Assembly: GCA_021432635.1 (NCBI GenBank)
Contig: MU270059.1
Span: 394,003-458,002 of the forward strand
DNA: 64,000 nt
Origin: Thozetella sp. PMI_491
Taxonomy: Eukaryota > Ascomycota > Sordariomycetes > Chaetosphaeriales > Chaetosphaeriaceae
Direction: 5' to 3'
Shown: in pieces, positions 39,036-62,215 of the stretch
Numbering within the stretch: the first letter of the stretch is position 1
How the letters are laid out: each line of letters starts with the position of its first letter
Notes under the pieces: generated by a model
The model's database searches: none
What the model was told of the DNA's origin: nothing
The model's input: the letters and a program-made list of their open reading frames with translations, nothing else
Translations under genes and position numbers: made by a program

Positions 39036-39716
39036 ATGGCACTGAAGATCGACTTTGAGCCCAAATTTATCACCTTTGATTGCTATGGCACGTTGACCAA
39101 CTTTTCTGAGATGAGCGGAATAGCTCAGAGGATGCTTGCCGACCGCTTACCAGCCGAGGAGCTGGAACGCTTCATCCACCTCTTTTCCGGCTTTCGATTC
39201 GATGAAGTCTTGGGGCCCTACAAACCGTACGACGAAGTTCTCATCAACGCATTCAAGCGTACTTGCGAGGCGACGGGCGTGTCGTTCGTAAAGGAAGATG
39301 CAGAAAAGTTTTATGCGGCTGTCCCGACTTGGGGGCCCTGGCCCGATGTTCCCGAGGGTTTGCGCCGACTTGCTACAAAGTATAAGCTTGTCATTCTCTC
39401 CAACACGAATGATGAGATAATCATGTCAAACGTTGAGAAGCTAGGCGCACCATTTCATGCAGTTTTCACGGCACAGCAGGCACAGAGCTACAAGCCGCGG
39501 ATGCCCGGATTTGAATACATGTTTAAGCAACTTGGCTGCAAGCCGAATGATGTCCTCCACGTGTCAGCGAGCATGGAGTACGATCTGCAGACTGTGGAAG
39601 CTATGGGGATGAAGCATAAGGTTTTCGTCAATAGGAAGAAGACGGCATTAAAGGCACCTTTTCTTTACTATGAGGTCGACGGAATCGAATCGTTAGCTGC
39701 TGCAATGGGACTGTAG
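39036..39716 (+). CDS. Haloacid dehalogenase, type II
   Basis: This is a single exon of 226 residues from ATG 39036, typical for the family. HAD motif I reads FDCYGTLTN (nucleophilic Asp near residue 14), motif II is VILSNTND, and motif III/IV uses the Lys in QSYKPRMPGFEYM and the acidic ASMEYDLQ segment. This matches L-2-haloacid dehalogenase-like proteins, which displace halide from 2-haloacids by an Asp-ester intermediate; many fungal members have unproven substrates. It is cytosolic. The divergent pairing with a DAO-type oxidase suggests co-regulation, but the link is inferred from position only. Confidence 0.85.
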   Translation: MALKIDFEPKFITFDCYGTLTNFSEMSGIAQRMLADRLPAEELERFIHLFSGFRFDEVLGPYKPYDEVLINAFKRTCEATGVSFVKEDAEKFYAAVPTWGPWPDVPEGLRRLATKYKLVILSNTNDEIIMSNVEKLGAPFHAVFTAQQAQSYKPRMPGFEYMFKQLGCKPNDVLHVSASMEYDLQTVEAMGMKHKVFVNRKKTALKAPFLYYEVDGIESLAAAMGL

Positions 39717-40239: not shown

Positions 40240-42066
40240 ATGCCTTCGATCACTGCTCAGCCTGCTATTGAGAGCAACGGAAATGCTACAAATGGGCTTC
40301 CTCATGTGGCCCACTCAGCAGACATTGACCGCGAGAAGCCAAGACTGGATGCGCGTCGACTCGGGCTTGACCCCAACCTGAGAACAACGTATCCCACGCA
40401 ATCACTTCACTTCCTGCGCACTCTTGAAGAGCAGAAACTTACGCAAAATGGAGGAACTATTGCAGTGCAGGCGATCTCACAGGCGAAGCTAAAAATGGAG
40501 GTTGTGATCGTAGGCGCGGGGTTGGGCGGCCTCGCAACAGCGATCGCGCTCGCCCGACGCGGCCATCTCGTGACCATTCTGGAGCAAGCACCAGCTCTCG
40601 GGGAAGTAAGCGTGGACTCACTCTCAGATAAAAACATCCAGACGTACCTTTGAAAACTGACTTCACCCCTCCTAAGGTGGGCGCTGGCATCCAGATTCCT
40701 CCCAACACTGGCCGTTTGCTGAGGCGCTGGGGTGTCTTTGACAAGCTCGAGAAGTTTGCAGTGCGACCTGACCACATCAACTTCCGAAGATGGGAAAACG
40801 GTGCCGTAATTGGGCTTACGAGACTTGTGCCCGACTTTGAGGAGAACTTTGGAGCCCCCTACTATGTTGCTCATCGTGCCCATCTGCATACAGCCCTCTC
40901 CGAAAGGGCACTCGAGCTCGGCGTCACTGTGAGGTTGAACAGCCTAGTTACAAAGTACAGCATCGATAGCGGGTCGGTTTTCTTGGCGGATGGAACTGTC
41001 GTGAAAGGAGACTTAGTTGTCGGCGCTGACGGTAAGGACTGAGATCCTAAGAGTTTTCACGGGGAGAGACGAGAGAACGCTGACAATGAATGTGGTGCAG
41101 GTATAAAGTCGCTTGCGCGGGAGACTCTCCATCCGGAGACTACTGCGGAACCGACGTTCACCGGCTTTGCGGCATACCGTGCGACAGTTGATGTCGAGAA
41201 GATGAAGGCAGATCCGACTTTGGCGGCCCTCCTGGAGACGCCGTCTCTCAACGTGTGGTACGTCTACTCAGCCTTTCATGGAAAATGATACCAATGGGGT
41301 GTTATGTTCGTTCTACTGACTGGTCCGCAGGATTGGCGAGGAAAGGCACGTCATGACGTATACAATTGCCGCTGGCAAATCGTTCAATATGGTCCTTTCC
41401 CATATCGACCATTCGGACCCTGCGAGTTGGAGCTCAGAAGGAGTCGTAGAAGGAATTTTGCAAGAATTTTCAGGGTGGGATAGCCAGTAAGCGGAGATAG
41501 GAATGAGATTCTTTCTCCGAACGCCGGCTGACATCGAGTACAGGCTCCTGAGGATTATCTCTCTAATCGAGACCGCCATGAAGTGGTCTCTTCGCAGCGG
41601 CTCACGCCTGAGCTCGTGGGTCGACCCTTCATCGCGCCTTGTCCTCATAGGGGACGCCGCGCATGCCATGGTGCCTTACATGTCGCAGGGGGCTGCGATG
41701 GCCATGGAGGACGGTGCCGCCCTTGCCTACGTCTTGTCACAGATATCTTCGCTCAGCGAGTTGCCGTTTGCGATGCGTACGTTCGAACAAGAGCGCATCA
41801 AGAGGAGCGGCGCCATGCAGGAAGCGAGCATGGTCAACGGACTGATCTGGCATTTCCCTGACGGACCCGAGCAAGCTGCCCGGGATGCCGCCATGCGGGC
41901 AGAGGTAGAGGGCCGGCCCTTTACGAGGAGCGCGAATCAGTGGAGCGATCCAGTCACTCAGGCATGGGCCTATGGCTATGATGCCGAAGATGCGATGCAA
42001 GCCGAGTGGGAGAAAGCCGTCGCCGCTCATGTTGTGGAGAGCAGCTCTAGCCAGGCGGCGCGATAA
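40240..42066 (+). CDS. Flavin hydroxylase of salicylate/3-hydroxybenzoate type
   Basis: Five exons (40240-40605, 40677-41031, 41101-41257, 41331-41486, 41544-42066) give 518 residues in frame. The Rossmann motif VVIVGAGLGGLATAIALARR starts at residue 88. The DG motif is LVVGADGIKS and the second FAD motif is LVLIGDAAHAMVPYMSQGAAMAMEDG. The family is class A flavoprotein hydroxylases that add one hydroxyl to an aromatic acid with NAD(P)H. Homologs form catechol from salicylate or gentisate from 3-hydroxybenzoate. The neighbouring gentisate dioxygenase makes a gentisate-forming role more likely. An 85-residue leader precedes Met86, the usual start in this family; the leader is continuous and has no clear targeting pattern. 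Confidence 0.88.
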
Positions 42067-42313
42067 GTAGCCCGCAACACTACAGAAATACGGTATATTG
42101 TAGTGCAGATAACGCAAGAACCATATACTGTATCTTTTATTCATAAAATCTAGATTCGAAACAAGTAGTTTAGATGGACACCGCTCACACTTAACTCGCT
42201 GGTACAGTTACTTTGGTAAATCCCACGATGTACTGTCTTTTCAGCCACAAACTCTACGTGCTAAGGGTATGAAATTCTATTTTATTTTATATGCTAGCAT
42301 AATATGCCATTTA

Positions 42314-45306
42314 TCATGTCAGGCTCCATTCGGGACCTCGAAGATGGCCGTGAATAGGTATGTTGAGAAACTCCAAGTCGGCCGGATCTATTAACTCAGT
42401 CACATCCATGGTCCTATACAGTGGCTGGCTTTGGGATCCCAAAGGGAGCATATCAACCCCTTCTCCAACACTGAGATCATCTCGACGCGTAAAATCCTGT
42501 GGCCCATCGAAATACCCTACGGCGTCGGTATCTTTGCAGGCTAGATAAATTAGTGGTTAGCGAGCTCTGGTACTTCAGGTATGCAACTGGGGTTACATAC
42601 ACACAGAGTCGAGTATATACAGAAGCTTTGAGGCATATTTTGCGCATTTTTCAGTCATTCGATTACCCTTGTCAAGCAAAAGAAGTGATTCGATGCTTTC
42701 TTGCAACTGCTCTCGGCGAACTTCGATGTCGGTTTCTGGGAATGGCAAATTTCTTGCTTCCGCATCGTATCGAATGAGAAGTCCCGAAAAAAGGACAAGA
42801 GTAGCATTGAAGGCTAGTGGGCAAAAAATAAGTCAGTATCAAAGCAAGCTGGGACTAATATAATATGATGATCTCACTGTAGTAGAGAGAAAACCACCAG
42901 GCACCGAGTGGACGGTCTGCGCCTTCCCAGCGCATCAAACGGGCAATAAGCTCAATAATGGATACTGCAGACTGTATGCACGTGCGTAGGCTAGTTGTAC
43001 CAACCTGCCGGAGGGTGTTGATGTCTGCGATCTGGGGATCGTGCTCTCCAAGGGCCTTAAGAAATTGGTGCAGTACTGGTCGATGGGCTAGGACGCGGAG
43101 ATTTAAATATCGCAAGGTAAGAATGACCCGGAACCGAGTCAGTCCTGGGTAGGTACTGTGTACAGTTGTGAGATCGGCAGGCTGTATCAGTTGCATTGAG
43201 GGTGGCAGCGAGGCCTGCCACTGAAAAAGCCGCTGCTCGATGCGGAGGAGGTCAGAGGCAATGTCGAAGATATTCTGTGGCGCATCACACCCCAGGTTAC
43301 CGCCGTAGAGGGTGTCCAGTACTGTCCACATGATTTTGTACAGGTTACTTTTAATCGTTAGTTTCACAATTGAGATGGAAGGGCATTGATCCAAGTACAT
43401 TGTGGCATTAAAAAATGCGATGCTATTAGCTACGGCTGCATCGGCAACCAGGTCGACTGTGTACCCAGGATTCGAGAGATGACAAGGAGGTTCTATTCTA
43501 ACATAGCTCTCCGGGATCGAAGAAGGGCGCCCTAGGGTCATGCTTAAAGATCTGGGCCGCCGGTTAGCGGACTAGTGGCAAGACAAAGTCAGTCGCTGAT
43601 GGACCTCACCGATCAAGTATCACACAGCCGTACCATGTGCGGGTACGGATCTCACGCTCGAAGGGGGAATACTGATTCAAAGCCTCTGTCGAGTGTAAGC
43701 CAAGCTGGAGGGCAGTCTTCACGGCGAGTCCATGTAAATTCCAGGTCTGGATGGATCGTTCCGTGCCTTGCAGGTATTGGCACATCAGCAAAAGGAATTG
43801 AACTTGGTGGCTACCGTCAGCACATGTCCACTATAGGGATTCATGGTAGCTCACCAATCTCGAGGCTTGAGCCGGATCTAATTTGCTTCTCGCAGAGAGC
43901 CATTGCACGGGCAAAAAAGACCTCGGACTCTGCCGATCGCTGCTCGGCACTCTGGTCATTGCTGTAAGACGTATTCGTCGACATAGCCAGAACCATGTTA
44001 AGAAGACCTAGCCAGGACCGCCTGATTTTGCGAAAGTTGGTATTCGACAGCTCTCGGTAGGTTTCTAGAAAGCTTTCCTTGTGTATATATGGAAAAAGGA
44101 GCCCGGTATTAGAGAAGTACTGCTCAACAAGCCTTAAAGTCTCCTCGGCAGGCGGAAGGGTGAACATGGACTTCATTTCGACGGCGCGCGCTGGGGACGG
44201 CGGCCATGACGCGTGCAGCAAGTAGTTGTGAGAGGCGGCAATATTCGGAGAGGACGGCATGTCAACTACCTGAGACCGTTTCAAGACGGCTGTTGTGGCG
44301 TGGACGACGCGGCGCGTGAATGCTATGTTGGACGACGGGCCTGATTCCTGTCAGCGTCGGGAGCCATGAGGCCTGGCAGATACACGAACCAAAGTAGCCA
44401 GTGCCCTCTTCCTGCCTAAATATAATAGACCCAATCCCATCCGTTGGGTCGTCGTTTGCATCACGCGACTCATCGCCCTCGTCTTCGGCAGAGCCATCTG
44501 CGTCCTGCCGATCAGACTCGACGTCTGGATCTACAGAGCCGCTGTGGCGACTTTGCTCGATCTGCCCGACCCGGCCCGAGAGTCTCCTCAAGAGACGTTC
44601 TACTGTTGATAGACGCTCTTCGACGGATTCGACATGTCTACAGCTTGTGAGCAGGGCTATTCGGAGGATGGACAGAAGGGGCTAGTACGTACGCAAGGGA
44701 AGCAATCTTGGTCTGGCTTAGCGGGCCTGACTGCGGATACGAGCAATCGTAGTCGTGGTCTCTGCATGTAGAGCACCGTGGCCGGGATCCATCACACTGG
44801 AAAGAGTATCGACGTCAGTAGTGGTGCAGTGGCAGCCGCAGGGCTTCCAATGGCAGAGCTCGGCCCGTCGCTTGACTATGATTCCTCAATTGCACAAGAA
44901 TCCGGCCATAATGGCAAAAGCACGGATCGGGGATGGGCCGACGCACCCTCGATTTGCGGTATCTGCAAGATGTGCATGCAATCGCTATCCTACGCCGCTT
45001 GGCAGGCTTGGGATTGTCGGCATGGTTCCCGGTCTGAATAGCCGGCGCCGCGAGAGACCCGGCATCCGGAATGCCGCGATGTCGAGCGGTCGACATGACT
45101 ATTGCTCTTTTACCAAGCACGTTTCCAGTCACACTGTTTTGAACACTCTCGGAAGTGGAAGACCCAGGTAGTGCGGGGAGAATGTGGTTGGGCCGGAGGC
45201 CTGACTGCGATTTCCCTTGGGGATGTGGGGTCCTTCTCCCCACAGGAACTGGCCGGGCGGGGATAGAACGGGTAGTTCCCTTATGTCCCCGGAGCAGCCG
45301 CGGCAT
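42314..45306 (-). CDS. Zn2Cys6 activator of the gentisate cluster
   Basis: About eight exons give a protein of roughly 750 residues. The zinc cluster is split by an intron after RKSR: CTSCRYRKSR joins CDGSRPRCSTCRDHDYDC, giving the exact C-x2-C-x6-C-x6-C-x2-C-x6-C spacing. A coiled linker follows (HVESVEERLSTVERLLRRLS), then an acidic stretch, then the fungal middle-homology domain. That domain has VEQYFSNTGLLFPYIHKESF, the WNLHGLAVKTALQLGLH exon and the TWYGCVILDR / LGRPSSIPES pair. The last exon is acidic and may activate transcription. It starts 200 bp from the divergent gentisate dioxygenase and lies beside the hydroxylase, so control of both is the natural inference. An ATG at 45096 is an alternative start. 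Confidence 0.85.
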
Positions 45307-45506
45307 GAGGCGCCACAGGGTAACAAGCGGGAAGATGCAGGCCAAAGGAATTCTACATCGGCGGCCGGCCGGCCATTAACGACCTCAACAGAGTCATAGA
45401 CTTGTTCATATCACTGCTAAAATATAAGGACTTGTAGTCGTCCATCAGGCCCATCGTGCACACCATCAGGGACATTTTTGCATTCAAAGACCTCGACATA
45501 GTCAAA
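45307..45506. promoter_or_regulatory. Divergent promoter, regulator and gentisate dioxygenase
   Basis: Only 200 bp separate the two start codons. The region holds a CGGCGG-GGCCGGCC block (45359-45374) with overlapping CGG and CCG triplets, and an AT-rich AAAATATAAGG near 45418 that can serve as a TATA element for the dioxygenase. Confidence 0.55.
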
Positions 45507-46627
45507 ATGAGCACTGTAACTTCCACCGAAGCACTCGCCTCCTCCAGGGAAGAGGCTACCGCAAGCCTCCTCCAGGAGGCCAAGGGCCAACACACAAAGC
45601 CACTCTGGACCCAAATGACAAGGCTGAACCCGCCATTGCCCAACCCTCAATGCGTTCCCCACGTGTGGGAGTTCGAGAAGATCCGCCCGGCGCTACTCAA
45701 GGCGGGCGAGCTGGTCACCGAGAAGCAGGCAGAGCGGAGGGTGCTAATGCTGGTCAATCCAGCCCGAGGTACGTTAGTATACGGTATGACGGGTCAGTTG
45801 GGATGTGCCGGGGCTAACCGGCCAAGATGCTCCTTACACCACGGACACCATTTATGGGGGGCTTCAGTTGGTCATGCCCAATGAGACGGCTCCAGCCCAT
45901 AGACACACGGCCTTTGCCTGTCGCTTCATCATTGAAGGCAACGGCGGCTTTACCGCCGTCCACGGTCGCCGCATTCGCATGCAGCGCGGTGACGTGATCT
46001 TGACGCCGACCTGGAACTGGCACGACCACGGCAAGGACGGCTCAGGTCCCATGATCTGGCTTGACGGCCTGGACCTACCCAACTTTATCCATTTCCCTGT
46101 CCACTTTGTCGAACACTTCTCCCAGTCGCGCTACCCGGCGGAGGACGTCGACTCGGAAACCTCACCAATCGTGTTTCCATGGGCAAAGATGAAAGCCGAA
46201 TTGGACTCCACAAGCGGGTCGATGGCGACAATTCCTTATCTGAAAAAGAACAATGCAGAAAGTATGCTACACACTCCATTATCTACCATGATCTTTTTGA
46301 TGATTCTGACACATACTGTTAGTTAGCAAGGTGCTTGGTGCCAGTGCTACAAGGATCGCAGCTGGCTCCACGACCGACCCGGTCCAGGAGACGGCGTCCT
46401 CCATCTTTCATGTCATTGAAGGATCTGGGCACTCGGTCATAGATGGCAAGACTTTCTCATGGAAGAAGCATGACACCTTCTGCGTACCATCGTGGCACGA
46501 GTACTCGCATCATGCAGATGCTAGCGAGACTGTCTATCTGTACCGGTGCCACGACATCCCGATGCTCAAGTCTCTGGGATTTTACAGAGTCAACGGGGTT
46601 GATATTGAGAGCATCGTGTCCGAATAG
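45507..46627 (+). CDS. Gentisate 1,2-dioxygenase
   Basis: Three exons (45507-45768, 45827-46261, 46323-46627) give 333 residues. The protein is a bicupin. The first cupin carries the iron site in [19 protein letters not shown] and the following [17 protein letters not shown], with DGLDLPN after it; this is the family signature of gentisate dioxygenases. The second cupin ([17 protein letters not shown] to WHEYSHHAD) is a weaker copy. The enzyme opens gentisate between the carboxyl-bearing and adjacent hydroxyl-bearing carbons to give maleylpyruvate, using Fe(II) and O2. It is cytosolic. It is divergent from the Zn2Cys6 gene and convergent with the fumarylpyruvate-hydrolase gene. The ATG at 45507 was chosen because the frame upstream has no other ATG. 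Confidence 0.93.
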
Positions 46628-47101
46628 ACGAACTAGACTATTAATGTAGGAAGAAAGCTTATACGCAATACTATTTTGTGGTACACCTACGCGATAACAG
46701 ATTAGCTGGAGCATCTGGTACAAAAGAGAACTGATCGTCTTGATCTATCTACTGACAGAGAGGGAGCTCTCCGCTCTTATATAGCCGCCAGCGAGCCGGG
46801 GCTCCCTGGTCTCCTGTGGTGTAGTAGTGCTGATGCCAGCCGCGGTTAAAGCTCGACCAGCTGTAGCGGCCACGTGCACTAAGCAATGCGGGCACTTTGC
46901 ACGATGTATTTCTACTCCAATGCCTCTGTATAATTTTCCTCTTACTACCAAGTGAGATCACCACCATGTATGCTAAGATATCCGCCAGATCCCTCCCGCA
47001 CGAAAAGGTAACGGTGGTGTAATTCTTAAAATCTAGCAATCTAGAACTACCTATGCATGATGGAGTGCCGCACGTATTGTATTTACAACAATACGATAGG
47101 G
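46628..47101. other. Convergent 3' intergenic
   Basis: 3' UTRs of the dioxygenase and the FAH-family gene; no gene was seen. Confidence 0.6.
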
Positions 47102-48139
47102 CTATGCAAACCTCACTCCATTCTTAAGCGTGCCGATCTTGTCGATGACAACCTCCATTTGCGTGCCTGGAACTAAATACTGAGGCGGCTTCAGGCCAGC
47201 ACCGACGCCTACTGCCAGTTAGCCGACGATGACGTCAAAGTAGGGTTTCAGTCATTTCTTACCTCCTGGGGTGCCAGTCATGATAACCGAACCCTTCTGG
47301 AGCGTGGTCCCCGTGGACAGGTACGACACGAGGTATGCGCAGTCAAAAAGTAGATCAGACACCATCTCTTTTTGGTTCACCTTGCCATTGATAATGGTTT
47401 TGAGCTCCAGAAGTTTCGGGTCTCCAATCAGGTCGGAGCGCACTAGGCAGGGGCCAAGCGGTGCGAACGTGTCGAAGCCTTTAGAGAACCCCCATTGAGG
47501 AACGCCTCCGGCCAGCTTGGGATCACGCTGTAGCTTACGTGATGAAACATCGTTTCCGCATGTGTATGCAGCTACGTAATCCAGCGCCTGGTCGACGGGT
47601 ACGTCCTTGGCGTCCTTGGCGAGGACGAGACATAGTTCACCCTCATAGTCGGCCTGGTCGTCCTGCGCAATCCTGGGGATCACGACATCTGCACCATGGT
47701 CTTGGATGCAGGTGTTGGGCTTGAAAAAGATGAAGGGGAACGGAGGTGGGGTTCGACCGGCCTCTCGGACTAACATGACTCAGTACGTTCTGTCATCAGG
47801 CCCCGGCCAGAGAGTTGGTGGGCTTGCCGTAAAGAAATAGAGGAGGTGTGTTAAAGATTGCTTACTGTGCTTTGCATAATTGAGGCCCACGCACCGCAAG
47901 ATGCTGACATCGCTCTGCGCGAGCGGCCCGAGGAGCTTCTTCACCGTGACGACTTCATCCGATACCTTGGTTGCCCCTGTTTCGTCATACATATCCTCGC
48001 CAGTAATGACTTTAGCCTGGAGCGCTGTCTCCTCGGTCACGGTACCCAGGTCAAAACCCTCCGAGGGCATAATGGGCTCCCCGCGAAGCACGCGGCCATC
48101 AGTGGCAACGAAGCGGATAAGCCGAGTCCAGACCACCAT
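47102..48139 (-). CDS. Fumarylpyruvate hydrolase-like FAH protein
   Basis: Three exons (48139-47866, 47769-47263, 47211-47102) give 296 residues. The FAH fold is shown by CVGLNYAKHIREAGRTPPPF, then FIFFKPNTCIQDHGADVVIP, the metal-binding pair in DYEGELCLVLAKDAKDV, AYTCGNDVSSRKLQ, GFDTFAPLGPCLV, and the closing SVIMTGTPGGVGVGLK-like segment (here VGVGAGLKPP). FAH proteins of this size cleave beta-diketo acids. Next to a gentisate dioxygenase the expected substrate is fumarylpyruvate or maleylpyruvate, giving pyruvate plus fumarate or maleate. The frame is open upstream to about 48355 with further ATGs, so a longer N-terminus is possible; VVWTRLIRFVATDG is the usual start. Confidence 0.9.
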
Positions 48140-49219
48140 CGTTGCTGCAATATAGTTCCTTGGGCGTTGGTGGTAAGTACTATGCACATAGCTAGAAAGA
48201 GGCAAGTTTGAACGGACTATATCTGCCCCAGGCTTTCTACGATAAAGCATCGGCTGAGGCATCCGCGGACTTAGGAACCGAAGACCCGACGACGCGGGGC
48301 GAAACTCGGCGAAGGAGAAACTCGGCGATGTGTGCATACGTGCCCACAAACTCACACTAAACCTGAATGCTAGGAGGTGCCGATAGTTACATGGTCAATC
48401 AAATGAGACCAAGCATCCCATTCCAGCTTGCTATTGACTCAAGGCGTAGATAGTTGAACGATACACTCACACGCGTAGGGGTGTGGGGTTCTTGCGTCGC
48501 TCAGCTAGGGGCGTATCGCTATGTCTTCATTTACTAAGGATACCATTCTTGTATGATCTTCTACTTCCATTATTTACCCATACATATCGCGGGAAGATTG
48601 CGAAAGCCATAAAGCAATATCTAGCTCCACGCCATCGGTCAATTACCAACCACAAGCTTGATGGGTGTAGGTATCTGAGGGCCGAAGTGCTGGTGGTGGG
48701 TGGTGGGGCTGGATATCCCGGGAGCTCCGGGGACTTAACGGATCGAGTCCCGCTCCCCGCCTTTCCCCACTCCTGCCTGCCCCACACCGGGCTTTGTTTG
48801 CCTGTCGGAGCGACGCGCGCAATAGCTTCCCCAATGCAGAGAGTGGGCAGTATGAATGATGTAGGAGGCGTTGTAGCCCAATAAGCCCCCTTTCGAATGC
48901 GTGTTCTCGGCAGCCAATATAAATTATCATTATAAATAGTATGGTTGCTTGCTTATCCCAACTTTTCGTGTCAGCATATCAACTCCCGCTAGCCGAGCCG
49001 TTACCAGCGGTGTATCCACTGCCTCGGTACAAACTTCTCCTTGCAATGCGAACATGTCTCCCCCACCCCCGTTCCACGCCTTGTCTGAAGCGTCTTGGGA
49101 TGCGAGTTACCGCGAGATGTCTTTACTTGTGTTGGGGAAAACCTACGGCGAGAACTCACCCAGGAGGGCATCAATTTGGTGCACATAGTCCTAGGCCAAG
49201 GTCAAAATACATATACCTG
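48140..49219. other. Intergenic
   Basis: FAH-gene promoter and the downstream side of the bZIP relic. The plus-strand frame from 48941 has no motif and is antisense to the bZIP gene. Confidence 0.5.
48302..48329. repeat. Direct repeat with CTCGG, period 16
   Basis: GAAACTCGGCGA occurs at 48302-48313 and again at 48318-48329, about 165-190 bp before the FAH-gene start. CGG half-sites in tandem could bind a Zn2Cys6 regulator; it could also be part of a longer coding N-terminus. Confidence 0.5.
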
Positions 49220-56073: not shown

Positions 56074-57721
56074 TCAAGGTATCGCTCGTGAGAGTTGTCT
56101 GTAAATAGTAAAGTAGTCTAGCCCCCCTTTCCATAACGGCGCGGTAAACGATAGTAGCTCAGAACATTTCAGGAGCGGGCCGGAGCAGCTTTCAGATCCG
56201 GGCCAGTGGCTTGCAATCCCGGTTATTAAGACGCATGCAGCCATAAAAGCTCTGGATGTCGCAAACATGGGTGGAATGAACGTATCCTGAGAAGTCATGA
56301 GGACGTGCACCGACTCAATGAGAGCAATGGCTTCACAAAGTACTCGGCGGTGCAGCCCCGGAGGACTGCCATCTCTCGGGCTTGATGAAAACAGTAGGCA
56401 GGATTCACAGGGGACATGGTCACTAATGAAGGGATAGAGGAGGAGCCATGCCTCGCGTGTCATAGGCTCGAAGCTCGGCATGCTCTGCAGGGTTCTGATA
56501 AGGGAAATTCCCGAGTCCTGCATGGGACATTCCTGCACATGTCGCTTCACGCCTTTTCCAAAGTAGTCTTGTATGATCTGTCGATACCCATTATAGGCAA
56601 TATCGCTATTGGCTACCTTAGAGCTTATGCTGCCCCCCAGCATCGGGGAGCGGTGCCATAAGATGGTCAGAGGCCTACCTGTTGCATTAATTCATTGCCC
56701 GGGTCCGAACACACGGAGCACCATACCTTTCAATGCTGATTAAGACCGATAGAAGTCTTTGGCGATCATCGGGTGCCATAATGTCAGTAGCGCCTTGTAG
56801 ATGACCATCGTTGCTCGGGCGATTATCAGCACCATCTTCGTCGGCTCGATGCCATCCTAACTCGAAGCATACCCGGGTAGCAGAAGACAGAAGCTCCAAT
56901 GTTAAGCCTCTTTCGTCGTCGGCGAGCTCGTACAGGATAAGCATGAGCAGTATGAACACCGTACGGTCGTCACGTTTCTCGAGCAAGGGGCTCGCAAGAT
57001 CATCGGCCCACTCGCGGCAAGTTTTGGCAATTGCTCTCCAAGCTGGGGCATGATAGCTCTTGTGAACGGCCGCCACCGCGCAAGTGAGAAGCACCCCGCA
57101 ACGCTTGTCCTCACCGAGCTGCTTCAGGTCGGTCTCTATGCCTTGCCCGCAGTGTGCCAATGTAGGATAAAGAGGCTCGATGCATCTAGCGTAGTGTGCG
57201 AGAAGGAAGCGTACTGTGCCGAGCGAAATACTGCTTCTCTCATGCTTTGAGCCCGCTGGTGGTAGCTCATGGTCGGGCACGGCTAGGGCTCCCGGCGGCG
57301 ATTCTACCTGTACTCCGAGATGCTGTACTTTGGCAATCGCGACATTTCCTATAACAACTGGTGGGGATGGTCCTAAGAACATATAATGATTGGTTCGATA
57401 GGGAACAAAACATTGGAAAAGGCCAAGATCCGGCATTGCCAATGTGGTTGGATTGTCCTCTCCGGTTGACGGGTGTGCGAAGACAAGCGCCTGTAGCTCG
57501 TCGATACGGTCGCAAAGGCTTTTGATATAGCTCCTTGGAATGTTTTCTTTGAGCGCATCGTCATAGTAAGAGCAAGGAAGGCCGGATTTATGGCAGCCCA
57601 CGCAACTGGGGAGGCGAGCATCGCACTTGCTAGATGAGCTACGAACACAAAAAAGGGCACAGCCGAAATTCTCACTCACCTTAATGCGCCGAGAACGGCA
57701 ACGGGAACATGTTTTTAACAT
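56074..57721 (-). CDS. Zn2Cys6 transcription factor
   Basis: Three exons (57721-57680, 57625-56727, 56674-56074) give 513 residues. The 54-nt first intron interrupts the zinc cluster and could be read through in frame; splicing gives CSRCRSRRIK joined to CDARLPSCVGCHKSGLPC, with perfect six-cysteine spacing right at the N-terminus. YIKSLCDRIDELQALVF is the dimerisation coil. The middle-homology domain follows (GTVRFLLAHYARCIEPLYPTL, then LSSATRVCFELGWHRADE). The next upstream gene, 655 bp away, is another Zn2Cys6 regulator transcribed the other way; the P450 lies downstream on the same strand. It probably controls one or both neighbours; the target is unknown. Confidence 0.85.
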
Positions 57722-58375
57722 AACGTTTGTTTAGACGGTCGACAGACGCAGCACTGCGTGCCCTAAGCAGCAGGACCACGTTCAACGTGAAAGGGCCTCT
57801 GCGACCTTGGAAAGGCTTGTGCAATGCAAGGGAGGATGGACAATAAGGCGGGGCGCACTAGGCATTGATAAGCAACCGCTGTGGACAAGTCAAGTTGCCT
57901 ACAACTCAGAAATATTTTGTACAGCACTACTTGTCTTGGCCATCTTTCGTTTGAGCTAGGGACAATCACACAAAATAAGGCATCTCCAGAATCTGCAACA
58001 GCTAAGTAACGCTGCGACTTTGCCTAGATGCCCCTTTAGGTATAGCAACATTTCGTCTGGTGGGGTTGCTGGAACCATGACAGCGAGATAATGTCGTGCG
58101 CCGTGGGGCCGAACAGCAAACACCCCGAATTCTATTGCCATCCCAAGTCTGGTGATTGACAAAGACTGTCATACTGTGCCATTATCGCTCGTTTCTACTG
58201 ACCCTTCCCCGCAAACGGTCTCAGATGCAAAGTGTTTGCCGCGCCTCGCCGGGGTGCCCGCGATAGCCAAGGACCCACGCGAGTCGGACTACCCGGATCC
58301 CAGACCGCCTGGCCCGCTGCCAGGTGCTACATCGGAATCTCCCACTTGCTTGGTTTGCATATATGCTAGTTACTA
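57722..58375. promoter_or_regulatory. Divergent promoter of two Zn2Cys6 genes
   Basis: 654 bp between the start codons at 57721 and 58376. It contains a perfect inverted repeat CCTGGC-N5-GCCAGG at 58308-58324, 52 bp before the plus-strand ATG. No coding exon was seen. Confidence 0.5.
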
Positions 58376-60472
58376 ATGGACGCTCTCCATGGCTTGCACC
58401 ACGCTGTCTCTGGACGGCGCTCGTCGAAGGTGTGCGCGCGGTGTAGAAAGAGAAAGTCGAAGGCAGGTGGTACCCTCTTGCAGATGAGTTGTATTGGGGA
58501 ATGAAGGGCTAACATGCGTACCTCTTCATAGTGTGACTCTGGGTATCCATCTTGCAGCGCCTGCGCCAAAGCTGGCGCTGTCTGTCGTGGCTATGATTCG
58601 GCCGGGCAACAGGACTTGCCGCGCAGGTGCGTAAGCCCAAGAGTGCAGGCCGAGCAGTTGGACCCTTATGTAGCTTTCCTCGAGATTCATAGGTATGCTA
58701 ATCCACATTAATCGATATATTATAGTCTAGTAAGGGCGCTCGAGGACCAAGTTGCCAAACTCGAACAAAAGGCATCCGATCTACACAATTTACCTGCGAA
58801 TGCGACATTTGCGTTGACCTCAAGGCTGGCCCAAGCAATACTGCCCGTCAAGACTTCGAGTCCACAGCCATTTTTCCTTTCCAATCTCACAACACTGTTC
58901 TTGCTAGGCCCCAGTTGTCTACCGTTGGCCGTGTCGAGTCTAAGCGTCGCGGAGGCGGGCACTAAACATCAGTTTCCGCAGCAACGGCCACTATCGACCA
59001 ACCTTGGACAGATCCCCTACGCGGCAATCGAGCAGATGATAATCAATTACACAAGCATTCACTTACCCCAGTACCCTTGCATTCCCGAACGAGATCTCTG
59101 TGATCTCCTCGAGCGAATTCTCCAAGCGCATGGCGGCGACACCGATGCTGCCTTGACCCTTGGCATTCCAACCGAGTCCAGGCTCACTCATTGTGACTAT
59201 TTCACAGTGTTTATCGCCCTGGCCGTGTCATCTCTTACGCTCACTTGGAAGAATGAGCACCAAGCGAGAATCGCCTCCAACGCCTTCTTCGAGACCGCTC
59301 TGTCCCACTTGCGCCTAGCGGCCGAAGTGACAGAGATTCAGCGGCTCCAGGCGCTTCTGCTTTTGGCACACTATGCACACTTGAATCCCACCAGATTGGA
59401 TAACTGGGTGTGCATTTGGAACGCCACGAGGATTGTCCTGGAACTTGGGCTGCATACACAAGCCTCCGAGATGTTTCTACGAGACGAGGCCCAGGCACGA
59501 TTTCAAAACCAGCTCTTCTGGTGCGCGTACGGTATGGAAAGGTCGCTTAGTGCCACTGTCCGCCTTCCCTTGTCATTCCCTGAGGCTGCCATTACAAAGG
59601 CGCGGGAGATAAACTGGGACGCGAACACGAAATACTCTTCAGCCAGCCACTTGTACCGATTTCGCGCCCTGGAGACCGAGGTCCATCGCGTTTTGTACCT
59701 TCGGGACAGTACAGCTATGGACAACAAGTCAGATCTTAGCTCCTGGTTCATTGAAATTACTAATCGACTTGATAACTGGTTGGAAAAGGCCACCGAGTTC
59801 TCCAGATATCGGATGCTGGAGTTTAGGCGGGTGCAGTATGGCCTCCTCAAGGCTCGTCTATTCCGCCCCACACCGAGAATCGAGTCACGCTCGCCCGAGG
59901 ATCGCGTGAAGTGTTTTGAGGCCTGCTCTATCTTAGTCGAAGACTATCGGCACCAGATCAAGCGAAGGCGTCTATTCTACCCCTGGCATGGCGTTCATAA
60001 TCTTTTTGAGGCTGCAGTGATCATGCTTGAGTCCTACTGGGCGCTAAGAGACTATGAACCCCTTAATCATCAAGCAAGGCATGTTCTTGCTGTCACTTTA
60101 CCCGACTGTCTCGCCCTTGTTAATAAGGTCGGAGAGTCTTGGGCGGATGCTGCCTTGTGCTCCACATATCTCAGCCCAGTCCTCGAAGAAGTGTTTCGCG
60201 CCTTTAGCAGCAGGGTCCTGGGTGAAATAGACTCGGCCCAGATTGAAAGGGAGGCTCTCACAACTGAAAAGCTGCGGAAGCTTCTCTTCCCCGATGGACC
60301 CCTTCTCTGGAGCTCTCGTTTGTCATTTGACGCAAACCAAGCGGTTGCTACTGACGCCAGTTTATCTGCTGACGCTGTGACCTTGGACGTGGAGACCACT
60401 GACTGGGATGTATGCTGGGAGTTTGTTGAGGATTTGTCGCCCATCTGGAGCGATGCCCTGCCTCAACCCTAG
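58376..60472 (+). CDS. Zn2Cys6 transcription factor
   Basis: Three exons (58376-58462, 58532-58626, 58726-60472) give 642 residues. Intron 1 has a GC donor (AAG|GCAGGT) and a GCTAAC branch site; removing it joins VCARCRKRKSK to CDSGYPSCSACAKAGAVC and gives the exact six-cysteine spacing. The next join restores the coil SLVRALEDQVAKLEQKAS. The middle-homology domain has ERDLCDLLERI, an LALLLLAHYAHLNP-like repeat and WNATRIVLELGLHTQ, then CAYGMERSLSATVRLP, the usual order in activators of xenobiotic or sugar pathways. The C-terminus is acidic (DWDVCWEFVEDLSPIW). It is immediately upstream of, and co-oriented with, the PaxM-like monooxygenase, its likely target. Confidence 0.88.
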
Positions 60473-60812
60473 CCCAATGGTGGGAAGGCGACGCGATATC
60501 GGCAGGGCGTGTTAGCAAGCATCTCTAGGTGCCGTTACTCAGACGGTCAGCTCCAGCATATAAGCTGGAAGGAACGCCTGTGTGATCCGTGCGCCCACCA
60601 AATACCAGGGTTCCGCTTTCCTAAAAGGGAATAGTTACAATCCCTGCGCTATGGATCAAGGATCAGATTGTCCGTTCTTGGCGCTGGACGACACGGGCCG
60701 GCCCTGCCGGAGCGCCGCGATATTATGCCATACAAAACCAACCGAGCCGCCTTTGTCGCAGGAATGTGCAGCAGTTTTCTTCCTTCCGCCATCCAATTCC
60801 TCCTTTTACTCA
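60473..60812. other. Promoter of the PaxM-like monooxygenase
   Basis: 340 bp between the stop of the regulator and the ATG at 60813. An in-frame open stretch from 60582 lacks an ATG at its start and was not used. It is GC-rich with several CGG/CCG triplets near 60690-60720. Confidence 0.5.
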
Positions 60813-62215
60813 ATGGCTCCAGCACAGTTTCGTATTATCATTGTAGGCGGTGGGGTGGTCGGGCTCACAGCAGCCAACATGTTGGCCAAGGCTAATATCG
60901 ACTTTGTGGTTCTTGAACGCGGCTCATCCTTAGTTCCCGAGCTAGGCGCCAGCCTGGCTATCTGGTCTTCCACGCTTCGCATTTTTGATCAGCTCGGGCT
61001 GTACGACGCGATATTGGAGAACTCGAGTCCGGTGCTTTCTACAACAATGCTCACACACGAAGGGAAGCAATACGACCGACAGGAATTCTGCGACAAGAAA
61101 TAGTAAGTTCAACCACTGATAGCCCTAGAAATATAGATGTGGTACAGAGCTAACCTATCGTCTCCATACGAAGCCTCGGCCATTCAGGCAGAGTTAGCCG
61201 GCGTTCCAGCATCCTCAAAGTTCTCTTCGATGGTCTGTCGGCCGAATCCAAGGCGCGCATCCACACGGACAAGAAGGTAACTGGAATGAGCGTCCGAGAA
61301 GATGGTGTAACCGTTACATGCCAGGATGGCTCTGCCTTCGAGGGCTCCATGGTCCTCGGGACGGACGGCGTTCATAGCATCGTGAGAAACTTGTCCCGCG
61401 AGCTCGCACTACACGAGTCGCCCAAGGCTATCGTGAATTCCGAAAAGCCGTTCCTAAGCACCTTTAAGGTTGTCTTCGGCAGCGTACCGAAGCCCAAGGA
61501 TATATCGCTGGGAGATACATATGAGGCCCACGGCAAAGACATATCCACTCAATTCTTTTGCGACAGAGACATGGCTTTCTTTTTTGTTTACCAGCGGCTA
61601 GACACGAACACTCAGGAGCGCGTGTCGTACGACGAAAAAGAGATGGAGCAATTTATTGAGGAAACAGGCCACATTCACATGACACCTGGCGTGACTGTGC
61701 GCGATATCTACGCTCAGAGGATCAACTCTGGAATGGTCAACCTCGATGAGGGTATCGTGGACTCCCAGGACTGGAAGCGCGTGTTGCTTGTGGGCGATTC
61801 GTGCCACAAGATGACTCCCAACTTCGGGTTTGGATACCACAGCTCCGTCTGGGACCTCGCAGTGCTTGTGAATCACCTCCGGGAGCATCTCCTGGCTCAC
61901 CCTGACGACCAAATCGACACCCCGACTCTGGTAAAGATCTTCTCTCGGTACCAAGAGGCTCGGGGCAGCCATAACAAGACGCTTATGAAACTCAGTGCTG
62001 GTCTGACGAGGTCCGCAACGTGGCAAACGTGGGTCGATTACCTTCTCGACCGCTTCCTGCTCCCCTGGACACATAGCATGACTTGGATGACCCCGCTTGT
62101 CCTTGTCCCGCTCTTAAAAGTCTGTCCGGTCCTGAACTGGCTTCCGGAGCCCAACTTCAAGAGCGGGAGTACCCCTTGGGATCATATGCCAAAGCTTGGT
62201 GACCTGGTCGAGTGA
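60813..62215 (+). CDS. FAD monooxygenase, PaxM-like
   Basis: Two exons (60813-61102, 61174-62215) give 443 residues. The FAD motif is IIIVGGGVVGLTAANMLAKA with VVLERGSSL at the end of the fold. The second dinucleotide site reads VLGTDGVHSIVR and the third VLLVGDSCHKMTPNFGFGYHSS. This combination, with a hydrophobic segment near the C-terminus (MTPLVLVPLLKVCPVLNWLP), matches membrane-bound monooxygenases of fungal terpenoid pathways (PaxM type) more than the aromatic hydroxylase at 40 kb. Those epoxidise prenyl chains. No prenyltransferase or terpene cyclase is present in the window, so the pathway is unknown. It lies next to a Zn2Cys6 gene on the same strand. Confidence 0.85.

Follow-up and report, generated by a model that had tools for sequence, protein, structure and literature searches.

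Can a compact fungal gene group that would lead from a hydroxybenzoate through gentisate to pyruvate operate with no maleylpyruvate isomerase beside it? The locus that raises this question lies in a 64,000-nucleotide stretch of Thozetella sp. PMI_491 (contig MU270059.1, positions 394,003 to 458,002), here called the window, which sits on contig C45 of a 72.3 Mb genome assembly in 157 contigs. At 40240-48139 of the window four adjoining genes encode an FAD hydroxylase, a Zn2Cys6 regulator, a cupin dioxygenase and an FAA hydrolase. From their gene structures, families and conserved residues and from the recurrence of the gene set, all directly established, we infer the reactions, substrate and regulation, and consider it likely that the window holds the four core genes of the ascomycete gentisate catabolism (GC) cluster in its isomerase-less, gentisate-like form. 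The gene set itself is known, and absence of an isomerase is usual for gentisate-like clusters. A reading of the cluster as unusual is not supported: its gene set makes up the conserved core published in 2014, and the isomerase-less form carries a published name. Newly added here are six other gentisate-type loci without a linked isomerase candidate, two zeta-class glutathione S-transferases (GSTs), relatives of the regulator and the affinity of the hydroxylase.

Gene models and predicted reactions

The gene models were built by hand from splice sites and comprise the following features, in positions of the window:
40240-42066, plus strand: FAD-dependent aromatic-acid hydroxylase (sahG type), 518 aa, 5 exons (40240-40605, 40677-41031, 41101-41257, 41331-41486, 41544-42066)
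45096-42314, minus strand: Zn2Cys6 regulator (ctfG type), 764 aa, 8 exons
45097-45506: regulator-dioxygenase intergenic region, 410 bases, presumably a shared promoter (from the sequence and gene models)
45507-46627, plus strand: gentisate 1,2-dioxygenase homolog (gdoG type), 333 aa, 3 exons (45507-45768, 45827-46261, 46323-46627)
48139-47102, minus strand: FAA-family acylpyruvate hydrolase (fphG type), 295 aa, 3 exons (48139-47866, 47769-47263, 47208-47102)

All 15 introns of the four models are of the GT...AG type and 49-150 bases long, each frame is intact with a single terminal stop, and Pfam supports all four families with every score above cut-off; the gene content, order and coordinates given in the initial annotation are right. 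The short introns of this type and the Zn2Cys6 genes identify the DNA as fungal. The regulator and dioxygenase genes are divergent and the dioxygenase and hydrolase genes convergent. The dioxygenase is a bicupin with two Cupin_2 stretches (73.7 bits), whose best NCBIfam match is gentisate 1,2-dioxygenase (TIGR02272, 260 bits) and whose best PDB match is 2d40, named a putative gentisate 1,2-dioxygenase (228 bits). Its His112, His114 and His153 align with three histidines of salicylate 1,2-dioxygenase, which we take to be the metal ligands, and it has Tyr97, also a tyrosine in 2d40, where salicylate 1,2-dioxygenase has Trp104. The hydrolase (FAA_hydrolase, 203.8 bits) keeps the H-x-x-E, E-x-E and D residues in the segments NYAKHIRE, DYEGEL and GND, which by the example of FAHD1 presumably have catalytic or metal-binding roles. 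The hydroxylase matches FAD_binding_3 (86.5 bits) and keeps all three FAD motifs. In its model 85 residues precede Met86, which stands just before the FAD motif, and the true start could be at this methionine instead.

The proposed route would begin with the hydroxylase, which would most likely add a hydroxyl para to the phenol group of salicylate or 3-hydroxybenzoate to give gentisate, whose ring the cupin dioxygenase would open to maleylpyruvate. The latter would pass to fumarylpyruvate either spontaneously or by way of an unlinked glutathione-dependent isomerase (an orphan zeta GST or a GFA protein), and the FAA hydrolase would then release fumarate and pyruvate. The Zn2Cys6 protein would turn the cluster genes on.

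The regulator combines a Zn_clus domain (37.4 bits; zinc cluster at residues 41-68) with Fungal_trans (124.3 bits). A search for its relatives at E up to 1e-20, with 100 of 248 candidates scored, gave at least 12 matches, of which 3 are the protein itself and 9 lie at four other loci, on contigs C18, C80, C47 and C1. At three of these four loci a dioxygenase match lies no more than 10 kb away; the fourth, C1, has hydrolase fragments. Elsewhere in the genome the best relatives of the regulator are thus located at other gentisate-type loci, which strengthens its link to the cluster; judged by these matches the regulator is a member of a family tied to such loci and not a chance neighbor, which supports the earlier claim that the cluster has its own Zn2Cys6 regulator. 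The 11-mer GTCCCCGGAGC occurs exactly at 45285-45295, between regulator and dioxygenase, and at 48724-48734, upstream of the hydrolase. A comparison of just these two regions is expected to yield about 0.18 shared 11-mers; with up to two mismatches the sequence is no commoner than in shuffles (16 versus 18.4), and the region upstream of the hydroxylase shares nothing of 11-mer length with it. On these grounds it was dropped as a shared promoter motif.

Just upstream of the cluster, a single open frame at 39036-39716 encodes a type II haloacid dehalogenase (163.8 bits, cut-off 125.4). Further along, 56690-62212 brings together two genes for fungal transcription factors, one of them of the Zn2Cys6 type, and one more FAD monooxygenase gene (PF01494), perhaps another small cluster.

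Related loci and the passage of maleylpyruvate

Including the window, the genome has seven gentisate-type loci, on contigs C45, C18, C80, C84, C47, C85 and C1. Dioxygenase homologs occur at six of them, namely the window, C18 (72% identical), C80 (66% in the best piece), C84 (43%), C47 (45%, partial) and C85 (partial), and at four of these six (C45, C18, C80, C85) an FAA hydrolase match lies about 2 kb away or less. Counting 28 FAA loci, merged by hand from 43 matches, the binomial chance of this adjacency is about 4e-10, a figure that is only a rough guide because cluster duplication makes the cases non-independent; the grouping of dioxygenase and hydrolase is more than chance. The loci differ in content. 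The C18 locus further contains an aldehyde dehydrogenase frame of full length, an MFS piece and a homolog of the regulator; C80 has a regulator homolog as well, together with an MFS sugar transporter. At C85 (L037, C85:107001-117000) an RPE65-family (stilbene-dioxygenase-like) protein, an MFS protein and an aldehyde dehydrogenase accompany the partial dioxygenase and pieces of an FAA hydrolase. The hydrolase matches at C18 and C85 contain stops or are broken, through introns or decay, the one at C18 spanning six stops. At C47 (L036, C47:518501-528500) the dioxygenase homolog has an Amidohydro_2 gene and a regulator homolog as neighbors, and its tblastn matches skip residues 88-232, the part that carries the metal histidines. 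The C84 homolog (L034:4970-6022) occupies one uninterrupted frame of 351 codons. Its neighbors are ankyrin-repeat and alpha/beta hydrolase genes, and the 10 kb examined contain neither a hydrolase homolog nor a regulator homolog. The C1 locus (L057, C1:955001-960500) contains a regulator homolog and hydrolase fragments, with no dioxygenase match on the contig, and is possibly the remnant of a gentisate cluster. By tblastn, no hydroxylase homolog was found in the examined stretches of the other gentisate-type loci.

The absence of an isomerase from the window, as initially annotated, holds at a larger scale: an exon-by-exon search of contig C45 at E up to 0.001, which a gene with many introns could escape, gave no match to GST_N (PF02798), maiA or GFA. 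The accompanying expectation of a zeta-class GST was too narrow, as the isomerase proposed in the Candida parapsilosis cluster described in PMC8929692 is a GFA-family protein. Genome-wide there are 44 exon-level GFA-family matches, with some genes represented by more than one of them, and none lies on the gentisate-type contigs C1, C18, C45, C47, C80, C84 and C85. The maiA cut-off is passed by two proteins in the genome, both zeta GSTs. They are 35% identical to each other, and the PDB matches of each include maleylacetoacetate and maleylpyruvate isomerases. One, on C50, adjoins a fumarylacetoacetase in a tyrosine pathway cluster; the other, on C16, is an orphan (L039:4502-5278) that has a purine-type permease and a thioredoxin-domain protein as neighbors, and reads S-D-C-S where the C50 protein reads S-S-C-S. 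After the orphan, a short piece at L039:5509-5619 is 61% identical to part of it. The suggestion that the isomerase is encoded elsewhere thus gains two candidates, for which a role with maleylpyruvate is only possible. C18 and C1 carry GST matches that fall under the maiA cut-off, at a distance of 75 kb or more from the gentisate-type loci. At L033-L037 and L056-L058, the gentisate loci searched by tblastn with 7 GFA and 2 maiA queries, no match was obtained, the DNA beyond being covered by the family searches only. No gentisate-type locus in the genome has a linked isomerase candidate, whether zeta GST or GFA. Seven such loci in one genome argue that isomerase linkage is not required, and in the account of Greene 2014 (PMC3914699) the isomerisation of maleylpyruvate is proposed to be spontaneous.

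Two alternatives bear on how the window cluster would work. It might be a relic or only partly working, with the real gentisate pathway at another locus, such as C18, whose dioxygenase, one of five others in the genome, is 72% identical and is joined by the hydrolase match, MFS piece, aldehyde dehydrogenase and regulator homolog described above. We regard this as very improbable: in the window no frame is broken in any of the four genes and every residue that was looked for is present, whereas the dioxygenases on C47 and C85 give partial matches and the hydrolase match on C18 is the one crossed by six stops. The other alternative is that the hydrolase itself splits maleylpyruvate into maleate and pyruvate, which would make an isomerase unnecessary. 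This would fit the absence of GFA proteins and above-cut-off zeta GSTs from every gentisate-type contig and the negative tblastn searches of the loci. The solved maleylpyruvate hydrolases 6jvv and 6jvw belong to the FAA fold and match the window hydrolase at 77 bits, but they are among the weaker of its 24 PDB matches, which are led by 8sky (146 bits) and include FAHD1 (105-107.5 bits). Since the FAA matches span several activities, the exact hydrolase substrate cannot be read from the sequence. The Amdase family includes maleate isomerases, and two matches to it (39 and 38 bits, cut-off 25.9) offer a possible exit for maleate, though neither lies in the window or near it (contigs C3 and C88). 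A maleylpyruvate hydrolase route has also been proposed for Cochliobolus heterostrophus (PMC12130555). Taken together, direct hydrolysis appears rather unlikely, and passage through fumarylpyruvate is the step that we favor.

The hydroxylase and its entry substrate

The affinity of the hydroxylase was judged by PDB score ranks and a residue check, with 60 of its 80 PDB matches listed. Among those listed the top scores belong to 8gsm (354 bits) and 8x38 (341 bits), named in the PDB as a 4-hydroxybenzoate decarboxylase and a vanillate 1-hydroxylase, and to 8r2t (337 bits), which we take to be the Trametes 4-hydroxybenzoate 1-hydroxylase; the enzyme of that description is named TvMNX1. The 3-hydroxybenzoate 6-hydroxylase (3HB6H) entry 4bjy scores 166 bits and the salicylate hydroxylase entry 6bz5 121 bits. 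Neither of two pertinent family models reaches its cut-off, the 3-hydroxybenzoate 6-monooxygenase model giving 243 bits (cut-off 459) and the salicylate 1-monooxygenase model TIGR03219 giving 151.5 bits (cut-off 446.35). A P-Y-x-x-Q-G-A motif is common to the hydroxylase and its decarboxylating 1-hydroxylase PDB matches. His299 and Tyr303 are the equivalents of His213 and Tyr217 of 3HB6H, which are termed active-site residues in PMC5472690, and both are kept. This histidine cannot separate the candidate activities, since the equivalent residue is described as the general base in salicylate hydroxylase, NicC and 3HB6H alike (PMC11921375). The initial annotation had favored gentisate over catechol as the product; the weaker match to salicylate 1-hydroxylase agrees with the part directed against catechol, but the best matches are decarboxylating 1-hydroxylases and not a 3-hydroxybenzoate 6-hydroxylase.

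Several observations weigh against a gentisate catabolism cluster fed by salicylate or 3-hydroxybenzoate. By score rank the hydroxylase is nearer to the decarboxylating 4-hydroxybenzoate and vanillate 1-hydroxylases than to 3HB6H or salicylate hydroxylase, and it has a proline at the position of 3HB6H Gln301 (mapped through the paralog L044), a glutamine presumably important for that enzyme. The dioxygenase falls under the curated TIGR02272 cut-off (260 versus 442 bits), a threshold for naming prokaryotic proteins and not an enzyme trait; the full-length C84 copy is likewise under it (225 bits). In Aspergillus terreus on salicylate, the gentisate-like cluster responds late and weakly compared with the catechol branch, and the authors describe it as apparently uninvolved in the breakdown of the gentisate formed (Martins 2021, PMC7842363). 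In C. heterostrophus a Rieske-type protein, and not an FAD hydroxylase, is reported to convert salicylate to gentisate, which speaks against the need for an FAD hydroxylase there (PMC12130555).

One alternative is that the hydroxylase is a decarboxylating 1-hydroxylase making no gentisate from salicylate or 3-hydroxybenzoate. The cluster would then act on a different para-substituted acid or on some substituted gentisate, perhaps in detoxification. Among the matches listed, 4-hydroxybenzoate and vanillate 1-hydroxylases score about twice as high as 3HB6H, and the shared motif and missing Gln301 point the same way. The monooxygenase of a Scedosporium cluster was grouped by its authors with decarboxylating 4-hydroxybenzoate 1-hydroxylases (PMC8283699), and FAMeDB 2026 calls the functional role of the gentisate-like pathway unclear (PMC13094099). 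On the other hand, no fungal 3-hydroxybenzoate 6-hydroxylase appears by name among the 60 of 80 PDB matches listed, and because the paralog L044 gives the same order, with three decarboxylating or related fungal entries again ranking first, fungal ancestry and not reaction type may explain the ranking. The 3-hydroxybenzoate 6-monooxygenase model also outscores the salicylate model, albeit with both under cut-off, and sahG is called homologous with the yeast 3HB6H mnx2 by Greene (PMC3914699). We hold this alternative to be doubtful. A further variant, in which a true decarboxylating 1-hydroxylase yields gentisate from 4-hydroxyphthalate or 4-hydroxyisophthalate, is a long shot that comes from chemical reasoning and is not evidence: exchanging the carboxyl that lies para to the phenol for a hydroxyl leads exactly to 2,5-dihydroxybenzoate. 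If true, such an entry could explain why the gentisate-like cluster lacks an early salicylate response and, together with direct maleylpyruvate hydrolysis, would make a gentisate route that needs no isomerase and starts from a new substrate. Gentisate formation from salicylate or 3-hydroxybenzoate is the reading that we retain.

Comparison with known gentisate clusters

In the 23 GC clusters that Greene 2014 describes in Ascomycota (PMC3914699) fphG, ctfG, gdoG and sahG are fully conserved, and the same four types stand side by side in the window, by family and not by orthology. As in that paper's gene list, no isomerase is included, and paralogous clusters in one genome are reported there as they are found here. 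The convergence of gdoG and fphG is also noted for type GC-MC, as an arrangement that the paper itself terms very weak support. Unlike the GC clusters, the window has no gene of the sdoG, adhG or mfsG type between its four genes; RPE65, aldehyde dehydrogenase and MFS genes sit at other gentisate-type loci of the Thozetella genome, and the C85 gene content is close to that of the Aspergillus fumigatus GC cluster (PMC3914699).

The C. parapsilosis gentisate cluster, MNX2-HBT1-GDX1-FPH1-GFA1-GTF1, likewise contains a hydroxylase, dioxygenase, hydrolase and Zn2Cys6 activator; it differs in having HBT1 and the proposed isomerase GFA1 (PMC8929692), whereas contig C45 has no GFA match. The Scedosporium cluster shares with the window a monooxygenase related to the decarboxylating clade, a dioxygenase, an FAA hydrolase and a Zn2Cys6 regulator, with no isomerase among its listed genes, and adds an MFS transporter and a P450; gentisate, on which the fungus grows, induces all six listed genes except the MFS gene (PMC8283699). 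The isomerase-less form was named the gentisate-like cluster in Martins 2021 (PMC7842363). In the aspergilli this cluster has the pathway genes minus maleylpyruvate isomerase, as does the window when likeness is judged by family, and the FAD monooxygenase and gentisate 1,2-dioxygenase ortholog named for it are of the window types (PMC7842363, PMC13094099). The Thozetella locus provides one more compact system for asking what such isomerase-less gentisate-like clusters do and how maleylpyruvate passes on in them.

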